NCBI RefSeq assembly: GCF_018448905.1 | Contig: NZ_RCWA01000006.1 | Coordinates: forward strand, 62,001 to 126,000 | DNA from: Photorhabdus heterorhabditis | GTDB lineage: Bacteria; Pseudomonadota; Gammaproteobacteria; Enterobacterales; Enterobacteriaceae | Length of the DNA: 64,000 bases | Direction of reading: 5' to 3' | Shown here: piece by piece, positions 37,058 through 55,078 of the stretch | How the letters are laid out: each line of letters begins with the position of its first letter | Position numbering within the stretch: position 1 is the first letter of the stretch | Translations under genes and position numbers: made by a program | Notes under the pieces: generated by a model | The model's input: only the letters and a program-made list of their open reading frames with translations | The model's database searches: none | What the model was told of the DNA's origin: nothing

Positions 37058-37942
37058 ATGAAGATACTTCCCGTAATTTCGCCTAAAGGTGGCGAAGGTA
37101 AATCCACACATGCCGCCAATGTAGCCGGTTTTCTTGCAGATGCCGGATTCACAACTCTCCTTCTTGACGCTGATTATTCTCAACCCACTTCAAGCAGTAT
37201 TTTTGCACTTGAGTATGAAGCCCCAGCTGGTTTGTATGAACTTCTTATGCAGACTGCTGACCTGGGTCAGAAAGACCAGATTATTTCCCGTTCTGTTATA
37301 AATAATCTGGATGTCATCATTTCCAATGATCCTGATGAACTCCTGCCTACGGCCATGCTTCATGCGCCTGACGGACGTTTGCGTCTGAGGAATATATTGC
37401 AGCACCCTCTGTTCAGTCAGTATGACGCTATCATCATTGATTCAAAGGGCGCTACTGGTGTGATGGCCGAGCTGGTTGTGCTGACGGCTACTGAATTTGT
37501 ATTGGGGGTGATTAAGCCCATTCTACCGGATGTACGTGAATTCCTGCGGGGATCGTTGCGTATGTTGACGCGACTGCAACCGTTTGAAAATTATGGTATT
37601 CGATTACCTTTAATTCAGATATTGGCGAATGGTATTGAAGGCACTAATCTTGACCGCGATACGTTGAATGAACTGGCCCATATTATCGAGCATAAACGTT
37701 ACGATACGTCCTCTTTTGGTGGGCGAAGAGTATACCAACTGCTGAAAACCCGCATCGATCTGCTGGATATTTATAAGCTGGGTCACGTACGTGCCCAACC
37801 CGTTCACCGTCTTGAATACAAAACCTCCCGTAAAAGTCCCGCTGCCGCACAAACAATGTACTGTCTGGCCTGTGAGTTGTTCCCTGAATGGCATGAACAG
37901 TTTGATGCACTGATGGCGAATAAGGGGGCGAAGAATGCGTAA
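37058..37942 (+). CDS. parA: ParA/Soj-family ATPase of the ICE
   Basis: This 294-residue ATPase keeps the excised ICE in the cell, as Soj does for PAPI-1. The deviant Walker A motif KGGEGKST lies at residues ~10-17, LLLDADYSQPT near 35-45, and IIIDSKGATG near 127-136 is the A' / Walker B region. ATG 37058 is preferred over the GTG at 37049 because it puts MKILPVISPKGGEGK at the usual distance from the N-terminus. It is the first ICE gene after the att repeat. It overlaps the next gene by 8 bases, starting the co-directional core operon. Confidence 0.88.
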   Translation: MKILPVISPKGGEGKSTHAANVAGFLADAGFTTLLLDADYSQPTSSSIFALEYEAPAGLYELLMQTADLGQKDQIISRSVINNLDVIISNDPDELLPTAMLHAPDGRLRLRNILQHPLFSQYDAIIIDSKGATGVMAELVVLTATEFVLGVIKPILPDVREFLRGSLRMLTRLQPFENYGIRLPLIQILANGIEGTNLDRDTLNELAHIIEHKRYDTSSFGGRRVYQLLKTRIDLLDIYKLGHVRAQPVHRLEYKTSRKSPAAAQTMYCLACELFPEWHEQFDALMANKGAKNA

Positions 37943-39314
37943 CCCTTTTTCTTTACCGGATGGCATTGAACAACCGTATTCTTGCGATGCTGAACAAGCC
38001 GTTCTTGGTGGGCTGATGTTGGATAATGATCGATGGGATGAAATCGTACCACTGATACATGCTGATGATTTTTTCCTGCCCGCTCATCGACGGATTTATG
38101 GCGCTGTTGCAACCATGTTTGCGGCCAATTTGCCTGTTGATGTACTAACGTTGTCTGAAATTTTAGAGCAAAAGGAGCAGCTAAAACAGGTTGGGGGATT
38201 TGCCTATTTAGCTGAACTTGGCAAAAACACCCCGAGTACGGCAAACATTGTTGCTTATGCGGAAATTGTTCAGGCGAAAAGTCGCTTGCGTCAGTTGATA
38301 ATGCTGGGAAATGAGATGAGCGATCAGGCTAGTCATCCTCGTGCTGATTTTACTGACATTACCGAAATGGCGGAGCAGCGTTTATATACGCTGTCTGAGC
38401 AGAAAGCTGTGCGCCAAGATATTAGCTTGAAAGAAGGGCTGGGTTTGCTGATTGAAAAATTAGAGCAGGCCAATGGCGGTAATGGGATAACGGGTACGCC
38501 GACAGGCTTTAGTGAACTGGATACAAAAACCTGTGGTCTTCAGCCGGGCGACCTTATCCTGCTGGCCGGTCGGCCTTCTATGGGGAAAACCGCACTGGCA
38601 CTGGCTTTCTGTCTGAGCGCACTGGAGAGTGCTCCTGATGCTGTTGCTCAGATTTTTAGTCTGGAAATGCCGATGGATCAATTATTGATGCGTATGGTGT
38701 CCATGTTAGAACGTGTTCCGCTTGAACGCCTGCGTAGTGGATTAATGGATGATGAAGATTGGGCACGGGTTAGCAGAGCAATGGAGACGCTAATTCAATG
38801 GGAAAATCGGCTGATAATTGATGACAGTAGTTATCAGACCCCGGCTTTATTACGCGCCCGTGCCCGCAGAAATGTGCGCAAGTATGGTCGACCTTCATTG
38901 ATTATGGTGGATTATCTGCAACTTATCCGAAGCCCGGAGCAGGAAAACCGAACCCAGGAAATTGCAGAAATTTCCCGTAGCTTGAAAGCACTGGGTAAAG
39001 AATTGGGTTGCCCAGTACTGGCGCTTTCACAACTTAATCGTCAACTAGAGCAGCGTACAGATAAACGTCCTAATAACGGGGATTTACGGGAATCGGGGGC
39101 GCTAGAGCAAGATGCTGATCTGATCTTGTTTGTTTACCGGGATGAAGTGTATGACGCCAATACATCGGATATTGGGATGGCCGAAATCATTATTGGTAAA
39201 CATCGCCAGGGATCGATTGGAACAGTCAAGATCCAGTTTGATGGCACCTGTACCCGGTTTAGTGATCTTACAGAGAGGTATTATGATCTTGGTGCTGAAA
39301 GGGGAAATATATGA
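37935..39314 (+). CDS. dnaB: DnaB-like replicative helicase of the ICE
   Basis: This 459-residue RecA-fold helicase has the DnaB N-terminal domain (SCDAEQAVLGGLMLDN, residues ~16-31) and the DnaB C-terminal domain with Walker A GRPSMGKTALALAF (~212-225), SLEMP (~242) and LIMVDYLQLI (~321-330). It is of the usual length for DnaB. ICE-borne copies of this helicase accompany parA in SPI-7-type elements and would help replicate the element. It overlaps parA by 8 bases and parB by 4. Confidence 0.9.
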   Translation: MRNPFSLPDGIEQPYSCDAEQAVLGGLMLDNDRWDEIVPLIHADDFFLPAHRRIYGAVATMFAANLPVDVLTLSEILEQKEQLKQVGGFAYLAELGKNTPSTANIVAYAEIVQAKSRLRQLIMLGNEMSDQASHPRADFTDITEMAEQRLYTLSEQKAVRQDISLKEGLGLLIEKLEQANGGNGITGTPTGFSELDTKTCGLQPGDLILLAGRPSMGKTALALAFCLSALESAPDAVAQIFSLEMPMDQLLMRMVSMLERVPLERLRSGLMDDEDWARVSRAMETLIQWENRLIIDDSSYQTPALLRARARRNVRKYGRPSLIMVDYLQLIRSPEQENRTQEIAEISRSLKALGKELGCPVLALSQLNRQLEQRTDKRPNNGDLRESGALEQDADLILFVYRDEVYDANTSDIGMAEIIIGKHRQGSIGTVKIQFDGTCTRFSDLTERYYDLGAERGNI

Positions 39315-41050
39315 GTAAGCATAAAACCTCTCTAAGCGATGCAATACTTCAACGTGGCAAAACACCACAATCACCAACCAGTACTGTTGTTTTGCCTATG
39401 GCAGAAATGCCAATGGTATTAACGTTGGATGAATTACAGCCAAACCCGGATAATCCTCGCCTCAGCCGTAATCCCCGTTTTGACGATATTAAAGCTTCTG
39501 TTCGTGCCAGAGGACTGGATTCTGTACCGAAAGTGACGCGAGATCCGGAAGACAGTGGAAATGTTTACATTTTCAGTGATGGAGGCAATACCCGTTACCA
39601 AATCCTATGTGAATTATGGAAAGAAACGGGTGAGGAACGTTTTTTCCGAATCCCTTGTTTGTTTAAACCCTGGCCTGGTCGGTTGCAGTGTGTCATTGGG
39701 CATCTGGCAGAAAATGATGTTCGGGGGGATTTAACGTTTATAGAGAAAGCGCTTGGTGTTTTTAACGCAAGTTCTATGCATGAGAAATGTTTGGGAAGAC
39801 CGGTCTCACAACGAGAATTGACAGATTTATTAAAACAAGAAGGGTTTCCAATATCACAAACCAGCATCAGTCAGATGCATAACACGGTGCAATATTTATA
39901 TCCTCATATGCCTAATTTGTTGATATCGGGTATGGGGCGTCCGCAAGCAGTAAACATATTGTCTTTACGAGTTGATGCTCAAAAAAACTGGAATAGTTTT
40001 TCTTCAGAGGCATCGTGTGGGAAGGACTTCGATTCAGTTTTTGGTGAGGTATGTCAGCGCTTTGATAATCCTGAACTCTATTCTTTTGACATGCTACGGG
40101 ATGAACTGATTGGGGAATTAATAAAAGCTTTGCCACATCCTGCCCTTAATTATGATCGCTGGTTATTGGAGCTCGATCCGAAAGAGCGAAACCGTCGTCA
40201 GTTATTTGGTGAGCCCCCTCCTATTGCTGAACATTTGCGCGATGCGGATAGACAAGCCGCTGAAGTGCCTGAAAAGTCGGTACCTCTTGTGACTAAAAGC
40301 GCTGCCTGCGTTTCGGCAGTGGAACCTGAGTCGCATGGGGATGTTATCGAATGTCAGGAAGATAAAAAGACTGAGGAATATGAAGCTTGTCCGCCCAAAC
40401 CGCCCAAAGTTGAAGTTCAGCTTGATGTGTATGAAACTCGGCCAACTTTATCCAGTGAGTTATCGACAATACAGGATAAGGAAGATATTGCGCCTTTAGT
40501 ATCAGCACCTTTATCGCAGATAGTTCCCTCTACTTTAAGTGAATTTAATCACTGTCTTCCAACACCACCACAAACTTCATTATTAACAGAGCCTACGCCA
40601 TCTGATGGATTGAGTTTTGCACAAACTGGTCTGGAGCCAGTTAGTGATATCTGGTCTATCTCACCGGTACGAGATGATATTGAGCATTTACAAGATATGG
40701 CGTTTCGTTTGGCATTCGAGTTAGCCGAAGAGATGGGAGGAGCGGATGAGCTTGAGGAAGCTAAAGATACGGCCTGTGAAGTGGGTTATCGATTAGCTTA
40801 TTCCCATACGGCATCACGTTTTGTACAGGTGCTGTTGTCGTTGACGGGGGAGAGTGACCATAACGGTGAATTGGCAGATACAGGTATAGGCATGTTGGGA
40901 ACCTGGTTTGTCGGGTCTGACAAGGACACTCCAGTATTGCCTGATGTCGCGGTAGTGAAATTTATGCGTCTTATTCGGGTGTTGCGCCGGTTACGTGAAC
41001 TGCAACGTGAGTTGTCAGTCGTCTCAGCAGAGGGGAATGGCAATGTCTGA
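39311..41050 (+). CDS. parB: ParB-family partition protein, PFGI-1 ICE class
   Basis: This 579-residue protein carries a ParB/Srx N-terminal domain: VLTLDELQPNPDNPRLSRNPRFDDIKASVRARGL (~residues 36-70), then FSDGGNTRYQIL, the usual G.RR-like box variant. A helix-turn-helix region follows (RPVSQRELTDLLKQEGFPISQTSISQM, ~164-190). The second half is a long Pro/Glu-rich linker (~300-450) and a helical C-terminal domain. Length and order match the ICE PFGI-1-class ParB proteins. It should bind centromere-like sites on the ICE. It overlaps dnaB by 4 bases and the next gene by 8. Confidence 0.85.
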   Translation: MSKHKTSLSDAILQRGKTPQSPTSTVVLPMAEMPMVLTLDELQPNPDNPRLSRNPRFDDIKASVRARGLDSVPKVTRDPEDSGNVYIFSDGGNTRYQILCELWKETGEERFFRIPCLFKPWPGRLQCVIGHLAENDVRGDLTFIEKALGVFNASSMHEKCLGRPVSQRELTDLLKQEGFPISQTSISQMHNTVQYLYPHMPNLLISGMGRPQAVNILSLRVDAQKNWNSFSSEASCGKDFDSVFGEVCQRFDNPELYSFDMLRDELIGELIKALPHPALNYDRWLLELDPKERNRRQLFGEPPPIAEHLRDADRQAAEVPEKSVPLVTKSAACVSAVEPESHGDVIECQEDKKTEEYEACPPKPPKVEVQLDVYETRPTLSSELSTIQDKEDIAPLVSAPLSQIVPSTLSEFNHCLPTPPQTSLLTEPTPSDGLSFAQTGLEPVSDIWSISPVRDDIEHLQDMAFRLAFELAEEMGGADELEEAKDTACEVGYRLAYSHTASRFVQVLLSLTGESDHNGELADTGIGMLGTWFVGSDKDTPVLPDVAVVKFMRLIRVLRRLRELQRELSVVSAEGNGNV

Positions 41051-41294
41051 TGATATTGATGACACGAGGGCTCAGGCTGTTACTACGATGTGGTTGGAAG
41101 AACAGATCGCCGTTGTACGGCGTGAGATGCATACCGGTAGGGTGTCACTGAAATATTGTGAAGGATGTGGTGATCGGATTGATGAGCAACGTCGGCAGAT
41201 TTTGCCGGGCGTCCAGTTGTGTGTTGGATGTCAGGAAATTGCTGAGCATTGGGAACAGGTCAGACGTATTACCGGAGGTCATCGTGGTGGGTAA
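41043..41294 (+). CDS. DksA/TraR-type zinc-finger protein
   Basis: This 83-residue protein contains CEGCGDRIDEQRRQILPGVQLCVGCQ, a four-Cys zinc finger (CxxC...CxxC) as in TraR/DksA proteins, near residues 39-64. TraR-like proteins bind RNA polymerase and alter promoter use; here it could adjust ICE or host transcription. ATG 41043 lies inside the parB 3' end with GAGGGG-like sequence just upstream; the longer frame from 40995 is less likely. It is a regular member of this part of SPI-7-type ICEs. Confidence 0.8.
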   Translation: MSDDIDDTRAQAVTTMWLEEQIAVVRREMHTGRVSLKYCEGCGDRIDEQRRQILPGVQLCVGCQEIAEHWEQVRRITGGHRGG

Positions 41295-41357
41295 GTTCAG
41301 ATCTTATGTGTTCCAATTTTGTTCAGACGTATCGTATTGCATTGAGAGAGGTGCCTT

Positions 41358-41948
41358 ATGAGCCAGATATCCCAGGTAACCAACGCCTTGTTAACTCAAC
41401 TGGTCATGGAGTTGAAATCGGGTTATCTCCGTCGCTGTGAAGCACTGGGTTTGATGGACGAAGAAATGCGGATGTTACACAGTTTGACTGTGGAAGACTT
41501 GCATTATCTGATGAATAGCCCAGTGTCAGTCCTTACGCTGCGTATCCATCATGAAAATTTTGCGTTAATGCTGCAACAAGCCCGACGTGAACAAAAACGT
41601 CTGCAACGTCTTGATCGGGCATTGATGTTAGGGGGCTCAATTGAATTGATGCAACACTACTTTGGGTTGACTTCTGTTGAGGTGAGTTCCCGTCGTCGTA
41701 TGTTAGGGATTGAAGCTCGCCAGGGTCGATGCCTGATGCTGACAGATAAAGACAGTGCTGAGGTCTGGCGACTGTGGAAAGCGCATGTCACTGATCTGGA
41801 TAGTGCGGATGGGCTGGAGGTGATGATGCAGGCCGCTGAACAGCTGGTCGTGTCACTGACGGCAGTCTGGAATGCTGTACGTGGCTGGATTGAAGACGAA
41901 AAGAACACAGTAAAACCTGAAGTTGGTCAGGGACGGCAAGACAGGTGA
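41358..41948 (+). CDS. DUF2857-family ICE protein
   Basis: This 196-residue helical protein begins MSQISQVTNALLTQLVMELKSGYLRRCEALGLMDEEM, with a middle segment GGSIELMQHYFGLTSVEVSSRRRMLG that looks like a helix-turn-helix reminiscent of FlhC-type regulators. It matches the DUF2857 proteins found between parB and the STY4528-type gene in ICEs of this class. The molecular role is unknown; transcription control is suggested by the DNA-binding-like motif. GAGAGAGG precedes the ATG. The next gene's GTG start overlaps its stop. Confidence 0.75.
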   Translation: MSQISQVTNALLTQLVMELKSGYLRRCEALGLMDEEMRMLHSLTVEDLHYLMNSPVSVLTLRIHHENFALMLQQARREQKRLQRLDRALMLGGSIELMQHYFGLTSVEVSSRRRMLGIEARQGRCLMLTDKDSAEVWRLWKAHVTDLDSADGLEVMMQAAEQLVVSLTAVWNAVRGWIEDEKNTVKPEVGQGRQDR

Positions 41949-42208
41949 AAAAGACAGAGATCACTCAGGGGTTGCTGGCCCCCTGTTCTGTACCACTCGT
42001 CTATAGAAAGAAAGCGGTAGAACAATTGAAACGTTATCGACAGGGTAGCAAAAATTACACTCGGATCAGAGCGAAAGGCAAAGGTAAAGTTTCTCATCGT
42101 TGCCTAAAAATTGATATTGGCATGTTTTGGCGGTTGTTAAGTCGTAACGGAGGACGAGATTGGGAAATGATGACACATGAGCGGTACAACAATGAAATCT
42201 GGAAATAA
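41945..42208 (+). CDS. Small basic ICE protein, possibly ParE-like fold
   Basis: An 87-residue basic protein starting at GTG 41945, which overlaps the preceding stop codon by 4 bases. Sequence VYRKKAVEQLKRYRQGSKNYTRIRAKGKGKVSHRCLKIDIGMFWRLLSR...WEMMTHERYNNEIWK resembles small ParE-like proteins annotated at this spot in SPI-7-type ICEs. The recollection is not strong enough to name a toxin, and no separate antitoxin gene is next to it. It overlaps the following gene by 32 bases. Confidence 0.55.
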   Translation: MKKTEITQGLLAPCSVPLVYRKKAVEQLKRYRQGSKNYTRIRAKGKGKVSHRCLKIDIGMFWRLLSRNGGRDWEMMTHERYNNEIWK

Positions 42209-43421
42209 CACACGGAAGGCTCCTTTGTCCTCTGATAGCCTCATTGCTTTTACGTTGGAGCAGATGAATGCACGACTGGCAGCGCAAGCTGAGGGTGATG
42301 AAAAAAAACAGTTGCGCAGTGGGCTGTTGTATCTGGGGAACGTGCATGATGCTATTCCCCGTCAGTTAATTCTGGATACCCGATTATCTCCGCTCGATAA
42401 GATGGCCTGGATAATGATACGGCTGTATGCACAACAAAATGCGGGAGCGGTCTTCCCTACCTATGATGAACTGCAATTGCAACTGGCCTCTCCACACAGC
42501 GGTAAAGCCTCCCGGGAAACCGTCAGCCGGGTATTGTTGATGTTGCGAATAACCGGCTGGCTAAGTTTGTGCAAACGCGTCAGGGATGAAAAAGGGCGGG
42601 TGAAAGGAAACATCTACGCCCAGCATGATGAGCCTCTGACATTTCATGATGCTGAAGCGCTTGATCCCAACTGGCTGGACACGGTGGGGGAGGCGTGTCG
42701 CCACAAAAACCGGGTGATTAGTCAGACTGCCTGGTCAGTATTGATGGAAGTTAAAGATGATCCGATGATGCGGCATCGCCGTTCCCGCATTGCTTTACTG
42801 GAAAATCGGTTAGGTCAGGTACAAACGCCGCAGCAAATGGCGGCGTTGCAAGCAATAAGTCAGCCAAGTTCGGTAACCGAATTCAATACAAAAACAGGGG
42901 ATAGTAATCCGAGTTCGGCAACCGAACTCAGTCTAAAATCAACGAGTTATGACAGAGTTCGGCAATCGAACGGTTACGTACGTCATTTCACACAGAGTGT
43001 GAATAAAAATACGTACGTAGCCCCATCGGATGGGGACGACCCGATGGATAAGCCTCTGTTGCCCACGATGTTAAGCAAGCAACTCTCTGATGACGATATC
43101 AGTATGCTGACTGAACAGCTCCAGGCACTTCCGTCTGCTCAGAGGCATTTGGTGTTGGATAGCCTGCGAGTTCCATTGGAAAATGGCTCGTTAAAAAATC
43201 CGGTGGGTTACCTCCTGACACTGATGAAACGTGCCAGGCAGGGGGAGTTGAGAAGCCCCGGTACAGCAAATCAGGGGGAAAACCCCGGCATGAAAAAGCC
43301 TGTGCCTGCCAGCCGTCAGAAAGACAGACCTGTTTTGCCAGAGGTGCAAAGAAAGGCCAATCCTGCCGTAATGAAAAAAGTGATTGCTGAAATCCGGCAG
43401 AATTTTATGAAGAATAAATAA
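42177..43421 (+). CDS. STY4528-family pathogenicity-island replication protein
   Basis: This 414-residue protein contains DTRLSPLDKMAWIMIRLYAQQNAGAVFPTYDELQLQLASP near residues 69-108, with a helix-turn-helix-like region (ETVSRVLLMLRITGWLSLCKRVRD) after it. These features match STY4528-family proteins of SPI-7 and related ICEs, annotated as replication proteins. The rest is helical, with a low-complexity linker around residues 225-285. The start could be ATG 42177 or 42192. It is the end of the first co-directional gene run, followed by a 390-bp non-coding stretch. Confidence 0.78.
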   Translation: MSGTTMKSGNNTRKAPLSSDSLIAFTLEQMNARLAAQAEGDEKKQLRSGLLYLGNVHDAIPRQLILDTRLSPLDKMAWIMIRLYAQQNAGAVFPTYDELQLQLASPHSGKASRETVSRVLLMLRITGWLSLCKRVRDEKGRVKGNIYAQHDEPLTFHDAEALDPNWLDTVGEACRHKNRVISQTAWSVLMEVKDDPMMRHRRSRIALLENRLGQVQTPQQMAALQAISQPSSVTEFNTKTGDSNPSSATELSLKSTSYDRVRQSNGYVRHFTQSVNKNTYVAPSDGDDPMDKPLLPTMLSKQLSDDDISMLTEQLQALPSAQRHLVLDSLRVPLENGSLKNPVGYLLTLMKRARQGELRSPGTANQGENPGMKKPVPASRQKDRPVLPEVQRKANPAVMKKVIAEIRQNFMKNK

Positions 43422-43811
43422 GCGGATACGATATCCACCATATCACTATGAATATGTCGCGACAGTCATGCAGTGAAGGAATAGCGATTTTTCAAATTAT
43501 GATTCTGTCAATAAATATGAATGAATTTCAATGGGATACTTTTTTTGTGTTGTTGAATACTGTGCTGGGCAGACTTTCCCATATTATCGGATTGCCTGAC
43601 AGAACGACGGGCACAAAAATGGCTACTTATCCAGGTCGTGATTAGAGTCTAATCATGGGCCAAAAGACATACAGTGATTAGAGTCTAATCATTATGGTTA
43701 TGGGATGTTAATCAGGTTTTTGGGGTGAGCAAAAAAGAGTTTTGAATTGTGGTCACAGGCTGATAACGCAACTATCTCAGCGATATCCTTATGTCACAGA
43801 GAGAATGTACC
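43422..43811 (+). other. Non-coding stretch with twin palindromes
   Basis: No credible gene is seen between the STY4528-like gene and ATG 43812. It contains the paired palindromes at 43639-43691 and likely the promoter for the PFL_4669-like gene and topB. Confidence 0.5.
43639..43691. promoter_or_regulatory. Two identical 17-bp palindromes 36 bp apart
   Basis: TGATTAGAGTCTAATCA occurs at 43639-43655 and again at 43675-43691. Each copy is an 8-1-8 perfect palindrome. The 36-bp offset is about 3.4 helical turns. They lie 120-170 bp before the PFL_4669-like gene. Candidate uses are an operator for an ICE regulator or a ParB-binding centromere; neither can be chosen from sequence alone. Confidence 0.65.
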
Positions 43812-44510
43812 ATGACTGAAACTAAAGAGACACATGCTGTTCGCTCAGGCGCACTGCATTCCTCACTTACCATTGAGTTGCATACTCATTACGCTATCAG
43901 CCTGTGGAATGGTCGCCGGGATGAAAGCAGCAAAAAGAATAAACCGGTGATTATTAGCATGCCACGATTTTTCTCACTAGCCGGTCGGATCAGTCAGGAT
44001 TCCCTGATAGATAATCCGTATGCCGATATGGCGATGTTGGCACTGGAAACTAAGCTTGCTTCTGCTCATGACCAGATGCAGGCGGCGTTAGCGGAACTGG
44101 TGGCTACACTCTCGGGGGTACCTGCTCAGATCCATTTATCTGAGATTGCCTCTGTTGCCCCGCTCAATATTGGTGTCTACAGTCGCACTCCTTTGGGTTA
44201 CCGCTGTGTTTGGCTATTAGTGGGTTACGATCAACTGGTGATGAAAGTCTTGCAGGCGCACCATTATGCGCTGATTTCCCGTCAACAATGTGACGGGTTT
44301 TTAAAAAAAGGGGGACACTGGGTACGCCAAATCTACGGTGCTGTCCAGCCGTACCGTAGTTTTGCTGTTACTCGTGACGATATCCTTTCCCAAACCCCTG
44401 CCGGCAGGGAAGCTATTACCCGTTTGGGGCTACCGGATGAGGCTGTTATGCGGGGCGAAAAACGTTCTGTTTTTTCTCCTGCATTAAAAAGTACGGTAAA
44501 GCAGAAATAA
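43812..44510 (+). CDS. ICE protein, PFL_4669 family
   Basis: This protein of about 232 residues matches the PFGI-1-class ICE family PFL_4669 (TIGR03761). Recognisable parts are MPRFFSLAGRISQDSLIDNPYADMAMLALE (~residues 55-84) and VYSRTPLGYRCVWLLVGYDQLVMKVLQAHHYALISR (~120-160). Function is not established; it is conserved next to topB in these elements. ATG 43812 is chosen because AGAGAG lies about 10 bases upstream; the ATG at 43791 has no such site. The gap to topB is 3 bp. Confidence 0.82.
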   Translation: MTETKETHAVRSGALHSSLTIELHTHYAISLWNGRRDESSKKNKPVIISMPRFFSLAGRISQDSLIDNPYADMAMLALETKLASAHDQMQAALAELVATLSGVPAQIHLSEIASVAPLNIGVYSRTPLGYRCVWLLVGYDQLVMKVLQAHHYALISRQQCDGFLKKGGHWVRQIYGAVQPYRSFAVTRDDILSQTPAGREAITRLGLPDEAVMRGEKRSVFSPALKSTVKQK

Positions 44511-44513
44511 GCG

Positions 44514-46544
44514 ATGAAACTGTTTCTGTGTGAAAAACCGTCTCAGGGGCGGGATATAGCGGCGGTATTAGGTGCAACAAAGCGCGGGCAGGGGTATTTA
44601 ACGGGTCCGGGGGTGACAGTAACCTGGGCAATTGGGCATTTACTGGAAACTGCCAGCCCAGAAGTTTACGGGGAGCAATATGGCGCTCCCTGGCGGGCGT
44701 CAGTGTTGCCGATATTGCCGGCCTCCTGGCAAATGGTGGTCAAAAAGGAGACGGCTGACCAGTTTACTGTTATCTGTCGTCTGCTGAAACAGGCAGACGA
44801 AGTGGTGATTGCCACTGATGCTGACAGGGAAGGCGAGGTTATTGCCCGGGAATTACTGGATTATTGCCAGTTTCAGGGAAAAATATCCCGTTTGTGGTTG
44901 TCTGCTCTGGATGAGGTGAGTATTCGGGCGGCGCTTGCTAATATTTTGCCCGGTGAACAAACGGCATCGTTGTATTTGGCGGGGCTGGGACGAGCCAGAG
45001 CTGACTGGCTCATTGGCATGAATTTTACCCGACTCTATACCGTGAAAGCCCGTGAATGCGGATATAGTGACATTTTGTCTATTGGACGTGTTCAGACGCC
45101 CACTTTGGCACTGGTTGTCTTTCGAGATCAGGAGGTTATCGCCTTTACGGCTAAACCTTATTGGCAGGTGGTGGCTGACCTTCAGTTTGACGGACGAATT
45201 TTCCGCGCGGATTGGGTACCCGCTGCGACTTATTGCGATGAAGAAAAACGCTGTATTCATCAGAATGTGGCACAGACAGTGGTTAAGTTATGCCAACAAA
45301 CTGGTACGGCTACTGTCCTGGAAATCAATACTAAACGGGAAAAGCATGCGGCTCCGCTGGCATTCGATCTTGGCAGTTTGCAACAGACGTGCTCAAAAAA
45401 ATGGGATATGGGAGCTCAACAAGTACTGAACATTGCTCAAAACTTGTATGAGACGTATAAGGCTATCACTTATCCCCGCACAGATTGTGGCTATTTGCCC
45501 ACGGTTATGCAGGCGGAAATTCCTCAAGTATTGGATGCTGTGGTTAAAAGTGATCCGGCTATGCGGATTGTGGTAGATAGTCTGGACCGGACGTTGATTT
45601 CGCGTATCTGGAATGACAAAAAAATTACGGCGCACCACGGTATCATTCCGACAAAACAGCCCTGTGATATGAATAAGATGACGGATGATGAGCGTAAAGT
45701 GTATCAGCTTATCCGTCAGCATTATTTGGTACAGTTCCTTCCTCTGCATGAAATGGATATAACTGAAGTGACTTTTGATATCGGTGGGCAATTGTTTCGT
45801 ACCCGGGGCAATGTAGTGATTGTTCCTGGCTGGAAGGTATTGTTTTCAGCGGGTAAAGATGAATCGACATCCATCGGGAAAGACGATTCTTTGGGAGAAA
45901 GTTTGCCGTCGATGGTCAAAGGCAGCCAATGTCAGGTTAATGAGGCTACTTTACGAATGTTGCAAACTCAGCCACCCGCTCACTTCACGGAGGGCACACT
46001 GATTGCGGCGATGAAAAATGCCGCTGCTTTTGTCAGTGACCCGCAACTTAAGAAGGTATTGAAGGACAATGCAGGGCTGGGAACGGAGGCTACCCGGGCA
46101 GGGGTACTGGATACGTTGTTTAAACGGGGTTATCTGACGAAAAAGGGCAAATATATCCACGCTACGCAGATTGCCAGCGAGTTGATAGCCGCGTTGCCTA
46201 CCGCGTTGACAAACCCTGGATTGACTGCATTGTGGGAACAGGCGTTGGATGATATTGCTCAGAGACAGGCGGAGTTGCCGGATTTTATGGCTCGTCAGAT
46301 ACAATGGACCCAATATTTAATGGAGCAGGTTCAGGCGCAGAAAGTCGTGATCACGCCGCCGCCTTCATTGCCTTGTCCGGTGTGTGGAGGCGTGACGCGT
46401 CAACGCCAGGGAAAAAACGGTGTTTTCTGGGGGTGTATAAAATACCCGGAATGCAGTGGGGTAGTCAGCACCGTCGGTGGAAAAAGAAAAACCAGATCTG
46501 CCCGGCATAAGAACGTACCGAAAAAACCGGCAATGACAGGGTGA
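44514..46544 (+). CDS. topB: DNA topoisomerase III (TopB-like) of the ICE
   Basis: This 676-residue type IA topoisomerase passes or decatenates single strands during element transfer or replication. The Toprim domain has EKPSQ (residues ~7-11) and DADREGE (~102-108). The active-site Tyr is in TYPRTDC (~318-324). A C-terminal zinc ribbon (CPVCGG ... CIKYPECSG, ~621-650) is present. The C-terminus is basic. It follows the PFL_4669-like gene by 3 bp. Length and motifs match ICE-borne topoisomerase III proteins; no key residue is missing. Confidence 0.93.
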   Translation: MKLFLCEKPSQGRDIAAVLGATKRGQGYLTGPGVTVTWAIGHLLETASPEVYGEQYGAPWRASVLPILPASWQMVVKKETADQFTVICRLLKQADEVVIATDADREGEVIARELLDYCQFQGKISRLWLSALDEVSIRAALANILPGEQTASLYLAGLGRARADWLIGMNFTRLYTVKARECGYSDILSIGRVQTPTLALVVFRDQEVIAFTAKPYWQVVADLQFDGRIFRADWVPAATYCDEEKRCIHQNVAQTVVKLCQQTGTATVLEINTKREKHAAPLAFDLGSLQQTCSKKWDMGAQQVLNIAQNLYETYKAITYPRTDCGYLPTVMQAEIPQVLDAVVKSDPAMRIVVDSLDRTLISRIWNDKKITAHHGIIPTKQPCDMNKMTDDERKVYQLIRQHYLVQFLPLHEMDITEVTFDIGGQLFRTRGNVVIVPGWKVLFSAGKDESTSIGKDDSLGESLPSMVKGSQCQVNEATLRMLQTQPPAHFTEGTLIAAMKNAAAFVSDPQLKKVLKDNAGLGTEATRAGVLDTLFKRGYLTKKGKYIHATQIASELIAALPTALTNPGLTALWEQALDDIAQRQAELPDFMARQIQWTQYLMEQVQAQKVVITPPPSLPCPVCGGVTRQRQGKNGVFWGCIKYPECSGVVSTVGGKRKTRSARHKNVPKKPAMTG

Positions 46545-46774
46545 GCTGATTTTTTGTTGTGTACCTAAGCTGGAGCTCTGGGAAGGTAAACTGGCTTTGG
46601 TACATTGCACCCCACGACTGCGGTTTGACAGGCAAGTCGTGCATGGATTTTCTCTGTTGTCAGTCCGGTAAACGGCTTCTTTTGAAGGGTTGGTAAATAG
46701 CTGCGCCGATGTCCCTGGAGTTTGTTGAGACTACTTAGCTTCCATCCTTGTACCATATGCCAGTGCAGATTCCT

Positions 46775-46803
46775 CGCCGTCCTTTGGGCGGCGCTATTTT
46801 TTA
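46775..46803 (+). terminator. Rho-independent terminator downstream of topB
   Basis: CGCCGTCC (46775-46782) and GGGCGGCG (46786-46793) form an 8-bp stem with a TTT loop (one G-T pair), followed by CTATTTTTT. It ends the core transcript about 230 bp after the topB stop, leaving a long 3' untranslated region or a small RNA. Confidence 0.75.
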
Positions 46804-47023
46804 CCGCTTCCCAAAAATCATTTTCCTCGTTGACAGTCTGGCCCCCTGATTCAAAAATGCGTGGGATAACTTGTTGTCTTCGGACAATCGCCAATATTCC
46901 CGCAGTCTGAGAGGAATGCCTTTGGGTGACTGCTCTCAATGTCAGAAAGGTCTGAGACTGACACTTTCGTGTGACCTGTCATAAAGCCATTGTAGCCTGA
47001 GAGATGGTGCCTGCGGGCGGTAA

Positions 47024-47140
47024 ACCCGTTTATCCTTTGGAAACGGGTATCACTGATAACAGTGATGAAGGTGTATTTTTAACTTATCAGATAGCCGGTG
47101 TCTGACACGGGCTTCCCGGCGGGAAACATCACTTCCCGCC
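47024..47140. promoter_or_regulatory. Array of stem-loops before the STY4534-like gene
   Basis: ACCCGTTT/AAACGGGT (47024-47048), ATCACTG/CAGTGAT (47049-47066) and GGCGGGAA/TTCCCGCC (47118-47140) form three perfect stems. A second TTCCCG at 47113-47118 can pair with the same CGGGAA, giving mutually exclusive folds. The array sits 50-170 bp before ATG 47194. It may regulate the gene or serve as a single-strand signal of the ICE. Confidence 0.5.
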
Positions 47141-47193
47141 CTGGGTGATGTGTTCTCCGTCGTTTCTTTTTTTCACTTCATAGAGAGAACATC

Positions 47194-47652
47194 ATGTCTG
47201 CAATTACCACTGAAAATAAATATTTCAACCTGAATATCAATGGATTGGGGTATCTCAGCAATGTCCGCAAGGTGAATGGTCCGAATGGCAGTTTTTTCAG
47301 CGCTGTCATCAATGCATTGAGTGGACCAACAGAGAATCCGTCTTATGTTCGCTTTGATGTCACTGTTGCCGGTAAGGAAAACAGTGACTTAATCAGCCGC
47401 TGTCAGAAAGCGGTTGATGAGGACAAAAAAGTCTTACTGGGTTTCACATTAAGTCAGCCGTCTACCGGGATTTTTACGTTGAACAAGGGTGAGCATGCCG
47501 GTGAACAGCGTGTCAGTTTAAGAGCGCGATTGATTAAAATTGACTGGATCAAAATCGGGCAGGAGATGGTTTATAAAGCTGAAAAACCTGAATCCGTGCC
47601 GCCTGTACAGAATCAGTCTTCGCAAAAGCATTATGCAGAGAATTCATTTTGA
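47194..47652 (+). CDS. STY4534-family ICE replication protein (DUF3577-like)
   Basis: This 152-residue protein begins MSAITTENKYFNLNINGLGYLSNVRKVNGPNGSFFSAVINALSG. That N-terminus and the FDVTVAG...KVLLGFTLSQPSTGIFTLNKGE body match the STY4534/DUF3577 proteins that precede ssb in SPI-7-type ICEs. The beta-rich composition suggests an OB-fold-like single-strand DNA-related role, which is inference. GAGAGAAC lies before ATG 47194. A 74-bp gap separates it from the split ssb gene. Confidence 0.8.
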   Translation: MSAITTENKYFNLNINGLGYLSNVRKVNGPNGSFFSAVINALSGPTENPSYVRFDVTVAGKENSDLISRCQKAVDEDKKVLLGFTLSQPSTGIFTLNKGEHAGEQRVSLRARLIKIDWIKIGQEMVYKAEKPESVPPVQNQSSQKHYAENSF

Positions 47653-47726
47653 CTGCCCCTGAAGTCTCTCCGGAGTGCATTTTTTCGGGGAATTTTTTTC
47701 ATCTACATTTTGAAAGGGAAGTTACA

Positions 47727-50592
47727 TGGCTTCACGCGGCGTGAATAAAGTGGTGCGACAAGAAGTTGTGTAATGCATTGTTTCAACAGTAAATCTGTAT
47801 GAATCCGACTATTCCATTAGTCGTAGCCTATCGAAACAGGCATCGCGGGTAACGGCTGTGTCAGAAGCTTTCGAGACAATGTAGCCCCGGAGAATTCGGC
47901 AGTTATCCGTGAGGAACAACTGTTATCTGCAAGCATCATGCGGATGGGGCGCTAGGCTGACTGGCATGATTAACATATGTGAACTGCTGATAAACATCGT
48001 CATAACGAACAGGCTAAAGATGCTGACAAGCCTGAACCAAAATGGTGCGAAAGCTGGTCATCCTTCTTACTTTTAAGGATGCATGGACATTAAGCTTCCG
48101 GTGGATAGGCAGAATCTAAACCAGTCATTTGTGTATTGCACAGAACTTGGTAAGCCTGAATTTCCGCCCTCGGGCAAGGCTAATCGTAAGATTAACTGAT
48201 GGGAATGCAGGTAGAGGATGATGGAGAAAGCGAACGCTCGTCTGTAATGGGTGAGACAGGGGTTCAAAATTTGCCCCAACATGAAAATGTGCAGACTTCC
48301 ATCTGGTCTTTAATCGTGAGAACAATTGCAAAGGATTTAATCCCGGAATGCAGTGCTATCAAATGACGCATTCAATCGACGGGATGGAGGCAGGCAAGAT
48401 GAATACTGTAAATCAAGTATCTGCGGTCTCCCACCACGAATCATGGCACGGTATCAACTGGTACAAATGTCATCGTGTGGTGAAGAAACTGCAATTACGT
48501 ATCGCGAAGGCTTCAAAAGAAGGGCAATGGAGAAAAGCGAAGTCCCTTCAACGCATGTTAACCCGATCGTTCGCAGGGAAAGCTGTAGCGATTAAACGAG
48601 TAACAGAAAATACCGGTAAAAGGACACCGGGAGTCGATAAGCAAATATGGAGCACGTCAGAAGCAAAGTGGAATGCTATTGCTCAACTTGGAAGAAAGGG
48701 ATACAAACCCCTTCCTCTAAGGAGGGTTTATATACCGAAAGCCAATGGGAATAAACGCCCTCTGGGTATTCCGACGATGAAGGACAGAGCAATGCAGGCG
48801 CTTTATCTGCTTGCTCTGGAACCAATATCTGAAGTAAATGCAGACCACAACAGCTATGGCTTCCGACCAGTAAGAAGTACGGCGGACGCAATTGAGCAAA
48901 TATTCAGGAATTGCTCCATGAGCTACTCTGCTAAATGGATACTGGAAGGCGACATTAAAGGTTGCTTTGACAATATCAACCATGAATGGTTACTTAATAA
49001 CATCCCGATGGATAAACAGGTACTCAATAAATGGTTGAGAGCTGGATACTTAGACAAAGGCGTTTTCCACACCACAGCAGCCGGTACACCACAAGGCGGG
49101 ATTATTTCTCCCGTACTGGCAAATATGACTCTAGACGGTCTTGAAAAAGAACTAAGGCAAAAGTTCGGAAAGAAAAAGTCTGAGTTTAGCAAGAAAAACA
49201 AAGTGAATTATGTTCGTTATGCCGATGATTTTATTATTACTGGTATATCAAGAGAAATATTAGTAAACGAAGTTAAACCCCTTGTTGTTTCATTCATGCA
49301 ACAAAGGGGGCTGGAACTCTCTAATGAAAAAACGGTAATAACTAACATTGATGATGGCTTTGATTTTCTGGGGCAGAATGTCAGAAAATTCAATGGTAAG
49401 CTGATAATCAAGCCTTCCAGAAGAAACCTGAAAAACGTTCTGAAAAAGATTAGGTACATAATAGACAGTAACAAAATGGCCACTTCATGGCGACTGATAG
49501 CCCTCCTGAACCCAATTATCAGGGGATGGGCGAACTATCATAAGCATGTGGTATCCAAGGAAACTTACAGTTATGTAGATGCCCAAATCTGGAGAAAACT
49601 TTGGCGATGGTGTGTCAGGCGACACCCGAAAAAGAACAAACGATGGATACGCAGAAAGTATTTCAGGTCAAGTGGAATGCGGAACTGGATATTCTTCGGT
49701 ATTGATCCTACGGGTAAGGAATATGAGTTACTGAGAGCAGACTCGATTCCAATAGTAAGACATACCAAAGTTAAGGCCGAGGCAAACCCTTATGAAATTC
49801 GGTGGGAATCCTATTTCGAGAAGAGACAGGATGAATTATGGATTAAATCCCAACGGAATAAAAGGAAGATAGCAGCAATCTGGTACAGACAAAATCAAGT
49901 CTGCCCCATGTGTGGTCAACGATTTTCCAATGAAACAGGTTGGCATGTTCACCACAAAATCAGGAAGTTAATGGGGGGAGGAGACGAAATTGACAACCTT
50001 ATATTGCTGCACCCTAATTGCCATCGACAATTACATGCGAATGAGGCTGGTTTCTTTAATAAGAAGCTTATAAAGGCTTGAGCGGTATGCGGGGAAACTC
50101 GCACGTACCGTTCTTAGGGGGCGGCGGTGCAGTAATGTGTCGCTGCTACCCGACATACTTATTGGACGATTGGGACAAGAACCAGAAGTGCGTTATCGGC
50201 CAGAGGGTGATACAGTGGCGGTATTGTCACTGGCAACATCGGAAACCTGGCGGGATAAACAAACCGGAGAGCAGAAAGAGCGTACCGAATGGCATCGGGT
50301 GGTCATTTTCGGCAAACTGGCTGAAATTGCTGGTGAATATCTGAGAAAAGGCAGCCAGGTGTATCTTGAAGGTCAGCTGCGTACCCGTAAATGGTTTGAC
50401 AAGACGAATGGGCAAGATCGGTATAGCACGGAGGTGGTGATTAGTCAGCAAGGTACAATGCAGATGCTGGGTGGCTGCGGTCAAAGCGAACCTTCTCGTT
50501 CAAGTGACCGGGGACAATCGCAACCCTCTTCGTCAGTGCCGTCCCGAGGAAGTGAACCCCCAATCGATTTTGACGATTTGATCCCTTTTTAG
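47727..50592 (+). CDS. ssb: Single-stranded DNA-binding protein, split by a group II intron
   Basis: The coding sequence is 47727-47753 joined to 50155-50592, giving 154 residues. Exon 1 encodes MASRGVNKV and exon 2 continues [19 protein letters not shown], which is the standard SSB N-terminus with no residue lost at the joint. The OB-fold core includes [29 protein letters not shown] Ser/Gln/Pro-rich linker leads to the acidic tip DFDDLIPF, the site for protein partners. AAGGGAAG precedes ATG 47727. A frame from 50137 that starts inside the intron is an artefact. The protein is made only if the intron splices. A terminator follows at 50633. Confidence 0.92.
48399..50081 (+). CDS. ltrA: Group II intron RT/maturase/HNH endonuclease
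   Basis: This protein of about 560 residues aids splicing and retrohoming of the intron. The reverse transcriptase domain includes [20 protein letters not shown] (~residues 110-130), [10 protein letters not shown] (~230) and the catalytic YADD (~273). A maturase domain X ([18 protein letters not shown]) lies near 370. A C-terminal HNH endonuclease has CPMC...WHVHHK...HPNCH (~500-550). ATG 48399 is chosen because GGAGG lies 8 bases upstream; the frame extends to 48348 without a comparable site. The stop codon reaches the start of domain V. No residue appears damaged, so the intron may be mobile. Confidence 0.93.
50080..50113 (+). ncRNA. Group II intron domain V
   Basis: The 34-nt stem-loop GAGCGGTATGCGGGG...CACGTACCGTTC matches the conserved domain V: a paired GAGCGGTAY/GTACCGTTC stem with GAAA tetraloop in the middle. 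It forms part of the intron's catalytic core. Confidence 0.88.
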
Positions 50593-50632
50593 AGTTCACC
50601 TTAGATACAATTGCCAAAAATATCACTATAAG

Positions 50633-50658
50633 CCTCCGATTTATCGGAGGTTTTTTAT
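50633..50658 (+). terminator. Rho-independent terminator after ssb
   Basis: CCTCCGAT (50633-50640) pairs with ATCGGAGG (50643-50650) around TT, followed by TTTTTTATTTT. It ends the STY4534-ssb transcript. Confidence 0.88.
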
Positions 50659-50742
50659 TTTAATTGGTATGTAAAGAAGTTAAAAATGAATGGATGGTTT
50701 TGAGGATATGTTTTACCTTGAAGTTGTGTAAAATTTAAGCGA

Positions 50743-50940
50743 GGTAGGCATGGAGAAGATGTATGGCGTCAGCTCCAGACCGCAGCAGAGCGTGAGTCTG
50801 AGCTAGCTCGTTGGAAAGAGGATGAGCAGATCAATGCTATGTTGAAGCTGCTAGTATTATCTAAAAAGGATATTGAGAAAGGAGATGTGGTGACATCTGA
50901 AGAAGTGTTGATACAAAGGAATGGAGAACGTTCTGAGTAA
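50743..50940 (+). pseudogene. Gene scrap, possible antitoxin C-terminus
   Basis: An open frame without a start codon reads GRHGEDVWRQLQTAAERESE and continues ELARWKEDEQINAMLKLLVLSKKD...EEV before stopping at 50938-50940. The helical, acidic character and the C-terminal DVVTSEEV resemble ParD/CopG-type antitoxins, but the match is loose. The 5' end is absent. Confidence 0.3.
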
Positions 50941-51275
50941 CAATGCATACAGATAAGGATAAAGTTCTTTTTATATCAATTGGTTAGTATAATGTTGGTA
51001 CTTGATTCCCCGCTACAGCACATCAAAAATTGGGATGTAGTTTCAATTTAAAATATCATTTAATCAATGACATGCTAGCATCCTTGTACAGATGTGCTGT
51101 AGTGGGATATTTTAATAATTCTCCCAGAACAAAGAGTTAGTTTATTTTTAGCTAGTATTTATGAGGATGTTCTGTGGTAGGGACAGCCCAAAATGACTTT
51201 AAAGACCTGCGATTCAGGACACTGCCATATCTACAGTATTATAGAAACTCTGTATGCTGATACCTATGAGGAGCA

Positions 51276-51534
51276 ATGATGGTTTAGATAGTTATTGAAA
51301 AATGGGGGAACAGCCCGGTGGTCAGGATCCTGGAATCTGTTATGGAAAAAGTTGGCTTCAATATCGTTGATATCGTTGATGTCATTGATATTTAAGTAAA
51401 AAAATTGCTGTATCATTATTGGAGTTGTGGAAACCAAAAAGCACTCTCTTGATACTCTCCTTGGGGGAATTTCCGATGTTAACCTTCACAACAAAGCTGG
51501 TTTTGGTCCGCCAACAGGCAAAGAGCTGCTCTGA
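51276..51534 (+). pseudogene. MazE/PemI-type antitoxin pseudogene
   Basis: GAGGAG precedes ATG 51276, and the frame reads MMV, then a TAG stop, then IVIEKWGNSPVVRILESVMEKVGF, the hallmark KWGNSxAVRIP start of MazE/PemI antitoxins. It stops at about 51394. A second frame from 51427 (ETKKHSLDTLLGGISDVNLHNKAGFGPPTGKELL) supplies the toxin-binding C-terminus. So one nonsense change and one frame break have killed the gene. No mazF-type toxin is seen after it. Confidence 0.65.
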
Positions 51535-51787
51535 ATTTTTAATCTAGTTTCGAAACCCTTACATGGTTGGATTACAGTACTTAAAGTTTTGTGAGCCAGA
51601 ATCTCTCAAAAATGATATGAAATTATTTTTTTGTGGCTATTTATAACAAACGTCTCTGCATGTTAATCAGCAGAGAGGACAGGTCAATATAGCATCGAGA
51701 TTTGATAAGGGTTTTTGAGGGGTTCACTATGGATTTTATTGAAATGGGTTTGTGAGACAGGCAAACCATAGTGACCCTGAAATGTTT

Positions 51788-52105
51788 TTAGGAGGATAAA
51801 CCAAGATAACTAAACAGAGCCTTTTCGATTACCTTGGGAGCAACCTTTAAAGCTCCTGTATAGCACTCCTTTGCCCTGTCACCAAGCCATGAGCCAATAT
51901 TGTCGCCCAAGTTCTCAGGCGTGGATGGTTTGCGTGATTCTTCTGCTACTGCCTGCTTTAATTCAGCAATGTCATTATCGTTGATACCATATTCTTTAAG
52001 TTGTCGTTCAAGAGAGTTAAAGTCACCTACTGTAATGGTGTTTTGCTGGTGGATGTCACCAATGTTACCCGCACCAATTGAACCAGTGTTATCAACTGGA
52101 GCAAG
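51788..52105 (-). pseudogene. AbiTii-family gene, C-terminal half (cut by IS66)
   Basis: On the minus strand this encodes about 100 residues including GSIGAGNIGDIHQQ, DFNSLERQLKEYGINDNDIAELKQ, and a C-terminus like that of the intact neighbour at 55079-55987. It joins in frame to the N-terminal half at 54445-55028 if the IS66 element and one copy of the 8-bp target duplication are removed. Confidence 0.85.
52098..52105. repeat. Target-site duplication of IS66 element (left copy)
   Basis: GGAGCAAG at 52098-52105 is repeated exactly at 54445-54452 on the other side of the element, as expected for the 8-bp duplication made by IS66-family elements. Confidence 0.9.
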
Positions 52106-52190
52106 GTAAACGTCCGGTCATCTCACCTTGTTCTTCCTCTCCGGCCCATGCACGCTACTGCTTCCTTATCTTCACCTGGAGACTGACACC

Positions 52191-52493
52191 ATGAGCCGTA
52201 GCCGATATACCCCGGAACAAAAACAGCAACATGTGACCCAATGGCGCCACAGTGACCTGACCCGAAAACAATATTGTGAACAGCATCAGCTGAGTTTTTC
52301 CTCTTTCCGCGACTGGATTGCCGACAGTAACAACATCCCCCAACCTCTCAGCCAGACACTGCCCGCCCTCTTGCCGGTTTCACTCCAGCCTGACGACGCG
52401 CGCACCGTCACCCTGCATACCCCAGACGGCTATGCCATCGCCTGTCCATTGACGCTGTTGCCTGACGTGATGCGGGTACTGGCCCGATGCTGA
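52191..52493 (+). CDS. tnpA: IS66 accessory protein TnpA
   Basis: This 100-residue protein (MSRSRYTPEQKQQHVTQWRH...TRKQYCEQHQLSFSSFRDWI) is the helix-turn-helix first protein of IS66-family elements, needed for transposition together with TnpB and TnpC. ATG 52191 is used; a longer frame from 52128 lacks support and reaches toward the element end. It overlaps tnpB by 7 bases. Confidence 0.85.
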   Translation: MSRSRYTPEQKQQHVTQWRHSDLTRKQYCEQHQLSFSSFRDWIADSNNIPQPLSQTLPALLPVSLQPDDARTVTLHTPDGYAIACPLTLLPDVMRVLARC

Positions 52494-52822
52494 AACCGCA
52501 ACAGCTCTTTCTGGTGCGAGAGCCCGTCGACATGCGCCGGGGCATTGATGCCCTGACCCAGCACCTGGAGGGGCTGAATTTGCGCTGGCAGGACGAAGCC
52601 GCTTTTATTTTCTGCAACAAGGCCCGCTCCCGTCTGAAGGTGTTGCGCTGGGACCGACACGGCGTCTGGCTGTGTACCCGCCGTCTGCACCGGGCCCATT
52701 TTGTCTGGCCGAAGCAGGGCGAACGCAGCTGGGTGATGACGCCCGCCCAGTTTGACTGGCTCATCCGCGGCATTCACTGGCGACAAGTCGAGGGAGATGA
52801 CCTGTCCGGCTGGCGAAGCTAA
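52487..52822 (+). CDS. tnpB: IS66 accessory protein TnpB (Orf2)
   Basis: This 111-residue protein has the family hallmark sequence LFLVREPVDMRRGIDALTQHLEG...FIFCNKARSRLKVLRWDRHGVWLCTRRL...FVWP, that of IS66 Orf2 proteins. Overlap with tnpA implies translational coupling. It looks intact. Confidence 0.93.
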   Translation: MLKPQQLFLVREPVDMRRGIDALTQHLEGLNLRWQDEAAFIFCNKARSRLKVLRWDRHGVWLCTRRLHRAHFVWPKQGERSWVMTPAQFDWLIRGIHWRQVEGDDLSGWRS

Positions 52823-52885
52823 TTCCGCTACCCCGGTCACACTTTTACCGGATAACGGCGGGGAATTATCCGGTACACTGTCGGC

Positions 52886-54391
52886 ATGACGCTCAATGAC
52901 TTAATGGCGCTGGATGACCCCGGCCAGTTCCGCCTGCGGGCACTGGCGCTGCTTCAGCAACAAGGTGATTATATTCGCCAGCTGGAAGAGGCCCTGAAAC
53001 AGGCGCAACGCTGGCGTTTTGGCGCGCACAGCGAAACCTTGCCTGCCGGTCCCAAACGCAGTCAGTTTGAGGAAGATGCCGATACCGATATCGCGGTGCT
53101 GGAAACCCAGCTGTCACGCCTGCATATCAAGGAAAACGCGACCCCGGCCCAGCCTAAACGTCAGCCTTTGCCGGCGACTTTACCCCGTGAAGATATCCGG
53201 CTGACGCCGGAGACGGAGAGCTGCCCGGATTGCGGTCATGCCCTGCGCTTTTTGCGTGATGAAATCAGTGAGCGACTGGAATACCGTCCGGCCACGTTTA
53301 TCGTCCGGCGTTATGTCTGTCCGCAGTACAGCTGTGCGGCCTGCCAGCGAATTCATGCTAAAGCCCAGCCCGCCCGGCTGATTGAAAAGGGCCTTCCGGA
53401 GCCGGGGTTGCTGGCTCAGGTGGTGGTCGCTAAATATCGTGACCACCTGCCGCTCTACCGTCAGCAGCAAATCTATGCCCGCAGCGGTGTCACCCTGGCC
53501 CGCAGCACCCTGTCGGACTGGGTGGGGCAGGTGGCTGTAGCATTGCAACCGCTGGCCGATGCCCTGAAGCAGACGCTGCTGACGTCCCCGGTGCTGCATG
53601 CCGATGAGACCCCGTTGCCGATACTGGCCCCGGGAAAAGGCCAGACCCAGCGGGCTTACCTGTGGACGTCTGTCACCGGCCCCGATACCTCGCCGGCAGT
53701 GGTGTACTATGAGCTGCATCCCGGCCGCAGCGGCCGTTACGCCCAGAGCCTGCTGAAAGACTGGTCGGGCGGCACGCTGGTGACGGATGATTATGCCGGT
53801 TACAACGCGCTGCATGCCCGGGCGGATATCACCGAAGCGGGTTGCTGGGCTCACGCCCGCCGCAAATTCTTTGACCAATACAAAGCGAGCCAAAGTCCGG
53901 TAGCAAAACAGGCGCTGGAAGGTATCCGGGAGCTGTACAAGCTGGAGCGAAAAATCAAACACCGGCCGCCGGATAAACGGCGTCAGTGGCGACAGCGTTA
54001 TGCCCGGCCGTGGCTGAATGAGTTCCGGTCCTGGTTGCAGACGATGCAGACCCGAACGGCCCCCAACTCGGGGTTACGCAAAGCGATAGATTACACGCTG
54101 AAGCGCTGGCCGGCGCTGGTGTGTTATCTGGATGACGGTCGGGTGCCGATAGACAACAACCGGGCGGAGAATGCGGTCTGGGGTGTGGCGCTCGGCCGAA
54201 AGAACTGGCTTTTTGCGGGTTCACTGGCCGCGGGGCAACGGGCGGCCATGATAATGAGCCTGCTGGAAACGGCCAAAGCCAACGGACATGAGCCCTGGGT
54301 CTGGTTACGTGATGTCCTCAGTCGGCTGCCTGTCTGGCCGAACAATCGGTTGAATGAGCTGTTGCCCTGGCCTGAGAATCCCTTCCGTTAA
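52886..54391 (+). CDS. tnpC: IS66 transposase TnpC
   Basis: This 501-residue DDE transposase includes an N-terminal helical region with the LEEALKQAQRWRFGAHSE motif (~residues 35-52), a zinc-binding segment (CPDCGHALRF ... CPQYSCAACQRIHAKAQP, ~112-160), and the catalytic core with LHADETPLPIL (~238-248), TDDYAGYNALH (~299-309) and DNNRAENAVWGVALGRKNWLFAGS (~427-450). All key parts are present, so it should be active. It follows tnpB by 63 bp. Confidence 0.94.
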   Translation: MTLNDLMALDDPGQFRLRALALLQQQGDYIRQLEEALKQAQRWRFGAHSETLPAGPKRSQFEEDADTDIAVLETQLSRLHIKENATPAQPKRQPLPATLPREDIRLTPETESCPDCGHALRFLRDEISERLEYRPATFIVRRYVCPQYSCAACQRIHAKAQPARLIEKGLPEPGLLAQVVVAKYRDHLPLYRQQQIYARSGVTLARSTLSDWVGQVAVALQPLADALKQTLLTSPVLHADETPLPILAPGKGQTQRAYLWTSVTGPDTSPAVVYYELHPGRSGRYAQSLLKDWSGGTLVTDDYAGYNALHARADITEAGCWAHARRKFFDQYKASQSPVAKQALEGIRELYKLERKIKHRPPDKRRQWRQRYARPWLNEFRSWLQTMQTRTAPNSGLRKAIDYTLKRWPALVCYLDDGRVPIDNNRAENAVWGVALGRKNWLFAGSLAAGQRAAMIMSLLETAKANGHEPWVWLRDVLSRLPVWPNNRLNELLPWPENPFR

Positions 54392-54444
54392 CATCCCATT
54401 TTGTTGTTATCTGACAACGCAAGGTGAGTCCACCGGAACATTAC

Positions 54445-55028: not shown

Positions 55029-55078
55029 ATAAATCTCCTTGAACTACCAACAGTTACACCTAAATCACATGCAAGGCT

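Follow-up and report, generated by a model that had tools for sequence, protein, structure and literature searches.

In Photorhabdus heterorhabditis, an ICE of the SPI-7/PFGI-1 class carries an ssb gene that raises the question of how a reading frame broken after its ninth codon can still yield an SSB, and of what the interruption means for the element that carries it. In the window (the whole 64,000-nucleotide stretch of contig NZ_RCWA01000006.1 that was analysed), the gene occupies 47726-50592 and is split between codons 9 and 10 by a group II intron. A preliminary description of this DNA had reported a split after codon 9 with an exact, frame-preserving joint, which is borne out (exon 1 comprises nine codons and ILIG continues in frame); its end of the gene at 50592 is likewise correct, while the start codon lies at 47726 and not at 47727. 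The parts of the interrupted gene are as follows.

47726..47752, + strand: ssb exon 1, 27 nt, 9 codons, MASRGVNKV; carries IBS2 and IBS1
47753..50154, + strand: group IIB intron, 2402 nt, GTGCG...GAC; the 3' end reads CCGAC
47805..47951, + strand: domain I core (Rfam group-II-D1D4-7, 113.8 bits, cut-off 34, full length)
48399..50081, + strand: intron-encoded protein, counted from the ATG that follows GGAGG (560 aa); the ATG at 48348 would give 577 aa
50078..50154, + strand: domains V and VI (Rfam Intron_gpII RF00029, 64.2 bits, cut-off 40, full length)
50137..50139, + strand: GTG in frame with exon 2, within domain VI; a possible but weak alternative start
50155..50592, + strand: ssb exon 2, 145 codons, C-terminal IDFDDLIPF

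The intron carries the characteristic ends of group II (GTGCG at 47753 for 5' GUGYG, and AC at 50153-50154 for 3' AY), and both Rfam matches were called at the gathering threshold. In the predicted fold of domain VI, a single bulged A (the branch point) lies at 50148, the seventh base from the 3' end. The intron ORF harbours the Pfam domains RVT_N, RVT_1, GIIM (maturase X) and HNH, all over the curated cut-off, matches NCBIfam group_II_RT_mat (378 bits, cut-off 300) and retains the YADD and PQGG motifs; its translation probably starts at the ATG behind GGAGG. Many related introns in other contexts align with it right up to both of its ends, beginning at the very first base. As judged from the sequence, the match to an intact group II intron is far beyond chance, and the earlier claim of an intact intron (GUGYG and AY ends, domain V and an RT/maturase/HNH protein) is confirmed in every part.

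Recognition of the insertion site was mapped by covariation between exons and the 5' ends of 42 introns (this one included), of which 37 were kept and five with the same exon end dropped. Three pairing elements emerged.

48003..48007, + strand: EBS2, pairs with exon positions -13..-9, 4/5 here; covariation over 37 introns
48068..48073, + strand: EBS1, TACTTT, pairs with exon positions -6..-1 (AAAGTG), 6/6 with one G-U; covariation over 37 introns
48106, + strand: EBS3, T pairs with the first base (+1, A) of exon 2; covariation in 26/30 introns

Across all domain I positions, EBS1 pairs at 5.43 of 6 positions with an intron's own exon as against 2.40 with the exons of other introns (z 14.4), and EBS2 at 4.46 of 5 as against 2.10 (z 12.5), these z values being somewhat inflated because some of the 37 introns share homologous sites. 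EBS3 and the +1 base pair in 26 of 30 introns, where 45% would be expected. EBS2 is fully paired (5/5) in 21 of the 37 relatives, as against 4/5 in the ssb intron. Introns of subgroup IIC lack EBS2, and in IIA a delta pairing takes the place of the EBS3 pairing with +1; EBS2 together with EBS3 thus assigns this intron to subgroup IIB. Within IIB, the GUGCG start, GAC end, domains V/VI, EBS1/EBS2/EBS3 and an RT-X-HNH protein all resemble the CL type, to which we take EcI5 and T.el4h to belong. The closest solved chain to the intron protein is 6me0_C (624 bits, as against 156 for LtrA), presumably that of T.el4h, and closeness to this one PDB chain is what suggests the CL-type placement. The ssb intron nevertheless differs from CL-type introns in its host gene and in its protein, which reaches about 63% identity with its best relatives, on plasmids; the best identity was 59% in named genome contigs (among the 80 loci retained out of 465) and 62% among relatives in a separate search.

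In an unspliced transcript, the frame of exon 1 would meet a stop after 15 codons. Exon 2 opens with ATACTTATTGG (ILIG) in frame with exon 1, and its frame is uninterrupted down to the SSB acidic tip IDFDDLIPF. The ssb transcript would therefore have to be spliced for the two exons to be read as one, and the supply of SSB from the ICE would probably depend on it. An SSB might instead be made without splicing from the GTG at 50137, as the frame is open from the intron into exon 2 and this codon stands six codons before the joint. Such a start is, however, very improbable: the GTG is buried in the domain VI helix, no good ribosome-binding site lies at the usual distance by our reading, and the product would lose the natural N-terminal strand of SSB. 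Moreover, 5 of 16 related introns in phase-0 genes (L009, L013, L016, L018 and L083) lack an in-frame start of this kind, which is therefore no common design.

The surroundings of the gene agree with the ICE context given in the preliminary description, with replication, partition, pilus and T4SS markers of the SPI-7/PFGI-1 class all four present.

37935..47652, + strand: ICE backbone upstream of ssb, with SPI-7-type DnaB, PFGI-1 ParB, STY4528, PFL_4669, TopB, STAXI RNA and STY4534/DUF3577

The upstream NCBIfam matches are dnaB_SPI-7_type, ICE_PFGI_1_parB, STY4528, PFL_4669, TopB and STY4534, with ssb directly following the STY4534 gene; PilL2 and PilN (NCBIfam) lie downstream, and TraD, traC_PFL_4706 and five ICE transfer proteins (TIGR03746/3747/3749/3752/3755) further along the contig. 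The marker scans gave no family for 4/10 and 2/10 of the proteins scanned, and one more was a transposase. From its pilus and transfer genes, the ICE is putatively capable of conjugative transfer. A Serratia plasmid is annotated with the same gene order (topoisomerase, small protein, ssb). The STAXI RNA (46872-47027; Rfam RF01728, 108.9 bits) lies between topB and the STY4534-family gene. Behind ssb, window positions 50606-56375 have no match in the compared ICE stretch of genome G010; with two AbiTii-domain genes in tandem and an IS66-type element, this segment resembles a hot spot for insertions that carries defence cargo. Two NRPS/PKS clusters on the same contig (window 11920-28664 and L120:7734-19974) flank the ICE ssb region on both sides.

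Evidence for the insertion itself comes from empty sites, for which the preliminary description had proposed a survey of this ssb position. The ICE ssb is present in 8 of 13 congeneric genomes and is uninterrupted in seven of the eight copies. Around the joint, all seven agree with the window over 15 nt on the exon 1 side and 11 nt on the exon 2 side; the whole of exon 1 is identical in six, the seventh (L099) showing one difference at a silent position. The uninterrupted ssb of G010 (L096) equals the window across 57 nt 5' and 40 nt 3' of the joint. In a blastn comparison with the G010 ICE, whose backbone is 95-97% identical over the matched pieces, the alignment ends at 47752 and restarts at 50155 on abutting bases of G010. 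This clean break, together with the empty sites, indicates that the intron entered without duplication or loss of target sequence, and the empty sites prove its predicted edges. Chance or misassembly is ruled out, the insertion being interior to a 181-kb contig and the empty sites exact.

The spread of the intron with conjugation, which had also been put forward, finds no such backing, since one of the eight ICE copies in the genus is occupied and the intron is single-copy in its own genome, where the single match likewise rules out spread inside the genome. A search of 392 genomes for exon 1 joined to the intron start returned three matches (the present locus and two outside ssb), and a stricter form of the pattern returned none among viral contigs. 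A single occupied copy gives no sign of recent movement, and the intact sequence may merely reflect a recent insertion.

The explanation that accounts best for these observations, and one that we hold to be very probable, is that a mobile group IIB intron retrohomed into the ICE ssb, splices and rejoins the frame, and is most likely a selfish passenger. Guided by EBS1/EBS2/EBS3, it would have entered the sense strand between codons 9 and 10, and it would now be transcribed along with the topB-STY4534-ssb genes. The intron RNA would fold and, with the help of the maturase, splice out, restoring the exact SSB frame and so a normal SSB. The freed RNA, together with the RT/HNH protein, could then reverse-splice into further copies of this site and home to empty ICE copies. 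Harm would be limited by splicing and by an intact chromosomal ssb, which would leave the insertion close to neutral.

The chromosomal ssb is uninterrupted in all 13 genomes of the genus, that of the present strain (L109) included, as it is in all 19 of the additional ssb loci found by a family search. Given this intact copy, survival of the cell need not depend on splicing; thus, of the earlier portrayal of the site as a conserved replication gene, the hit in ssb stands, while a gene essential for the cell it is not. The chromosomal copy pairs less well with the intron (EBS1 5/6 and EBS2 3/5, as against 6/6 and 4/5 for the ICE copy), which is likely to be the reason that it is empty; in an allele from another genome (L104), the EBS2 pairing is 4/5. 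The intact chromosomal gene also lends itself to a different interpretation, namely that poor splicing leaves the ICE ssb effectively silent, with the chromosomal SSB taking over its role. Ll.LtrB and EcI5 reduce the expression of the genes that hold them, according to the part of PMC6003770 available, in keeping with such silencing. The frame and acidic tip of exon 2 are nevertheless intact, with 97% protein identity to the empty-site copy of G010, although an intact exon 2 would look alike if little time had passed since insertion. On balance, we consider silencing possible but rather unlikely. Far more doubtful is a switch in which splicing links the supply of ICE SSB to conjugation or growth state: its precedent is confined to print (an interplay of Ll.LtrB with conjugation, described in portions of PMC4256276 and PMC6003770), while no intron is present in seven of the eight ICE copies found in the genus, nor in any of the 19 additional ssb loci.

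How unusual such an insertion site is can be gauged from the sites of related introns. From 118 loci fetched, both ends could be mapped in 73 (45 were left out); these and the present intron, once similar sites had been dropped, gave 56 distinct sites. A frame was counted as open when it had 25 or more open codons to each side of the intron and 130 or more in total. By this rule, 31 of the 56 sites lie on the sense strand of a long open frame, four are antisense and 21 fall in none, the present site being counted among the last because its exon 1 is short. A Pfam scan of one side of the gene was applied to 30 of the 32 pieces chosen (all but L011 and L125) and yielded 22 with matches and eight without. 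The interrupted genes match TraG, transposases, DUF932, DarB-like or SNF2-type helicases, ParB, DUF3150, UmuC, SRAP, ArdC, YhgA-like and Prok-E2_D, and also HD_5, MFS and AAA_24; going by these names, most would come from plasmids, ICEs or phages. With 31 of 56 sites sense in open frames, many of mobile-element type, sitting in the coding genes of mobile elements appears to be a habit of the lineage. Hence the site is less surprising than it had been made out to be, while the host gene itself is indeed unusual.

Of 22 genes entered in the sense direction (the present one and 21 matched by Pfam), 17 are interrupted between codons (P 3e-5 for an expectation of one third), L141 having been dropped from the count as its own upstream flank is an intron end. 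G stands at exon position -15 in 39 of the 56 distinct sites; apart from the variable pairing sites, no other position shows a strong base preference. With target-base preference taken into account, the phase bias retains a P of 0.0009 to 0.017; it is partly explained by this preference, and the remainder is suggestive only. Stops or starts within the intron do not explain it. Genome G483 has related introns in head-to-tail arrangement, one beginning directly on the base that follows another's end (L141:853-854; L148:853-854 and 3021-3022).

A search with exon 2 across the 118 related loci found ssb in three, and in one of 11 more (L174, a Methylobacter plasmid). At L011, a Gallionella MAG, a related group IIB intron (3382-5796) lies within ssb too, at another position, past the OB fold. 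The frame (3041-3381) ends in SEMKMLGG at the intron, resumes at 5797 in phase 2 and ends in GPEPF; in L033, an intact homologue runs SEMKMLGGNNK..NEQF across the insertion point. This intron pairs fully with its own ssb exon (EBS1 6/6, EBS2 5/5); upstream of it lie RecT and a nuclease-like gene, and a primase-like gene follows downstream. Adding this gene brings the between-codon count to 17 of 23. At other loci ssb lies upstream of the related intron, at about 0.7 kb (L006), 3.2 kb (L033) and 0.7 kb (L174). Among viral contigs, no new intron within ssb was found.

Several features have parallels in the literature. CL and ML introns reside in genes (excerpts of PMC4424553 and PMC6003770), housekeeping genes among them (PMC4424553, same excerpts), and an FII-33 plasmid intron sits in a 77-aa frame (PMC8765060, in part). 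Ll.LtrB, which interrupts the relaxase gene ltrB on a conjugative plasmid, likewise lies within a conjugative-element gene whose product is splicing-dependent (available passages of PMC6003770 and PMC4256276); it is, however, a group IIA intron in a relaxase needed for transfer, whereas the ssb intron belongs to IIB and the ICE SSB is backed by that of the host. The recA intron of Geobacillus kaustophilus is similarly placed, sense in a DNA-metabolism gene with splicing needed (sections of PMC4424553 and PMC3522654), but that recA is a chromosomal housekeeping gene while the present ssb is a mobile element's copy. Group II introns of phage genes also occupy conserved coding genes of mobile elements, including a DarB-like helicase, with intronless homologues as proof as in the present case (portions of PMC12350094). 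No ssb is among them, the term 'ssb' occurring 0 times in the main text of that paper and in those of PMC3522654 and PMC8919778; in the part of PMC6048247 available, the terms group II intron and ssb stand apart. Within the literature searched, including searches with Photorhabdus, and as far as its sources were available, no published example of ssb interrupted by a group II intron was found. The intron type is well known, while ssb as its host gene is unusual and, within the literature searched, new.

The Gallionella case hints that ssb is hit repeatedly. Tentatively, and with rather less than even confidence, this may reflect an intron branch specialised for genes of DNA handling in conjugative elements and phage-like modules, inserting in the sense direction between codons beyond what target preference gives, with ssb as a recurrent host; the host genes to be named for it are ssb (at least two cases, at two sites in distant bacteria), DarB-like helicases, ParB, UmuC, SRAP and ArdC. 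The locus also illustrates an annotation hazard, as an ssb of this form would be miscalled a pseudogene or given a wrong start codon if splicing were not considered. Furthermore, the occupied and empty copies of one ICE provide a clean natural pair for measuring what an intron costs a conjugative element.
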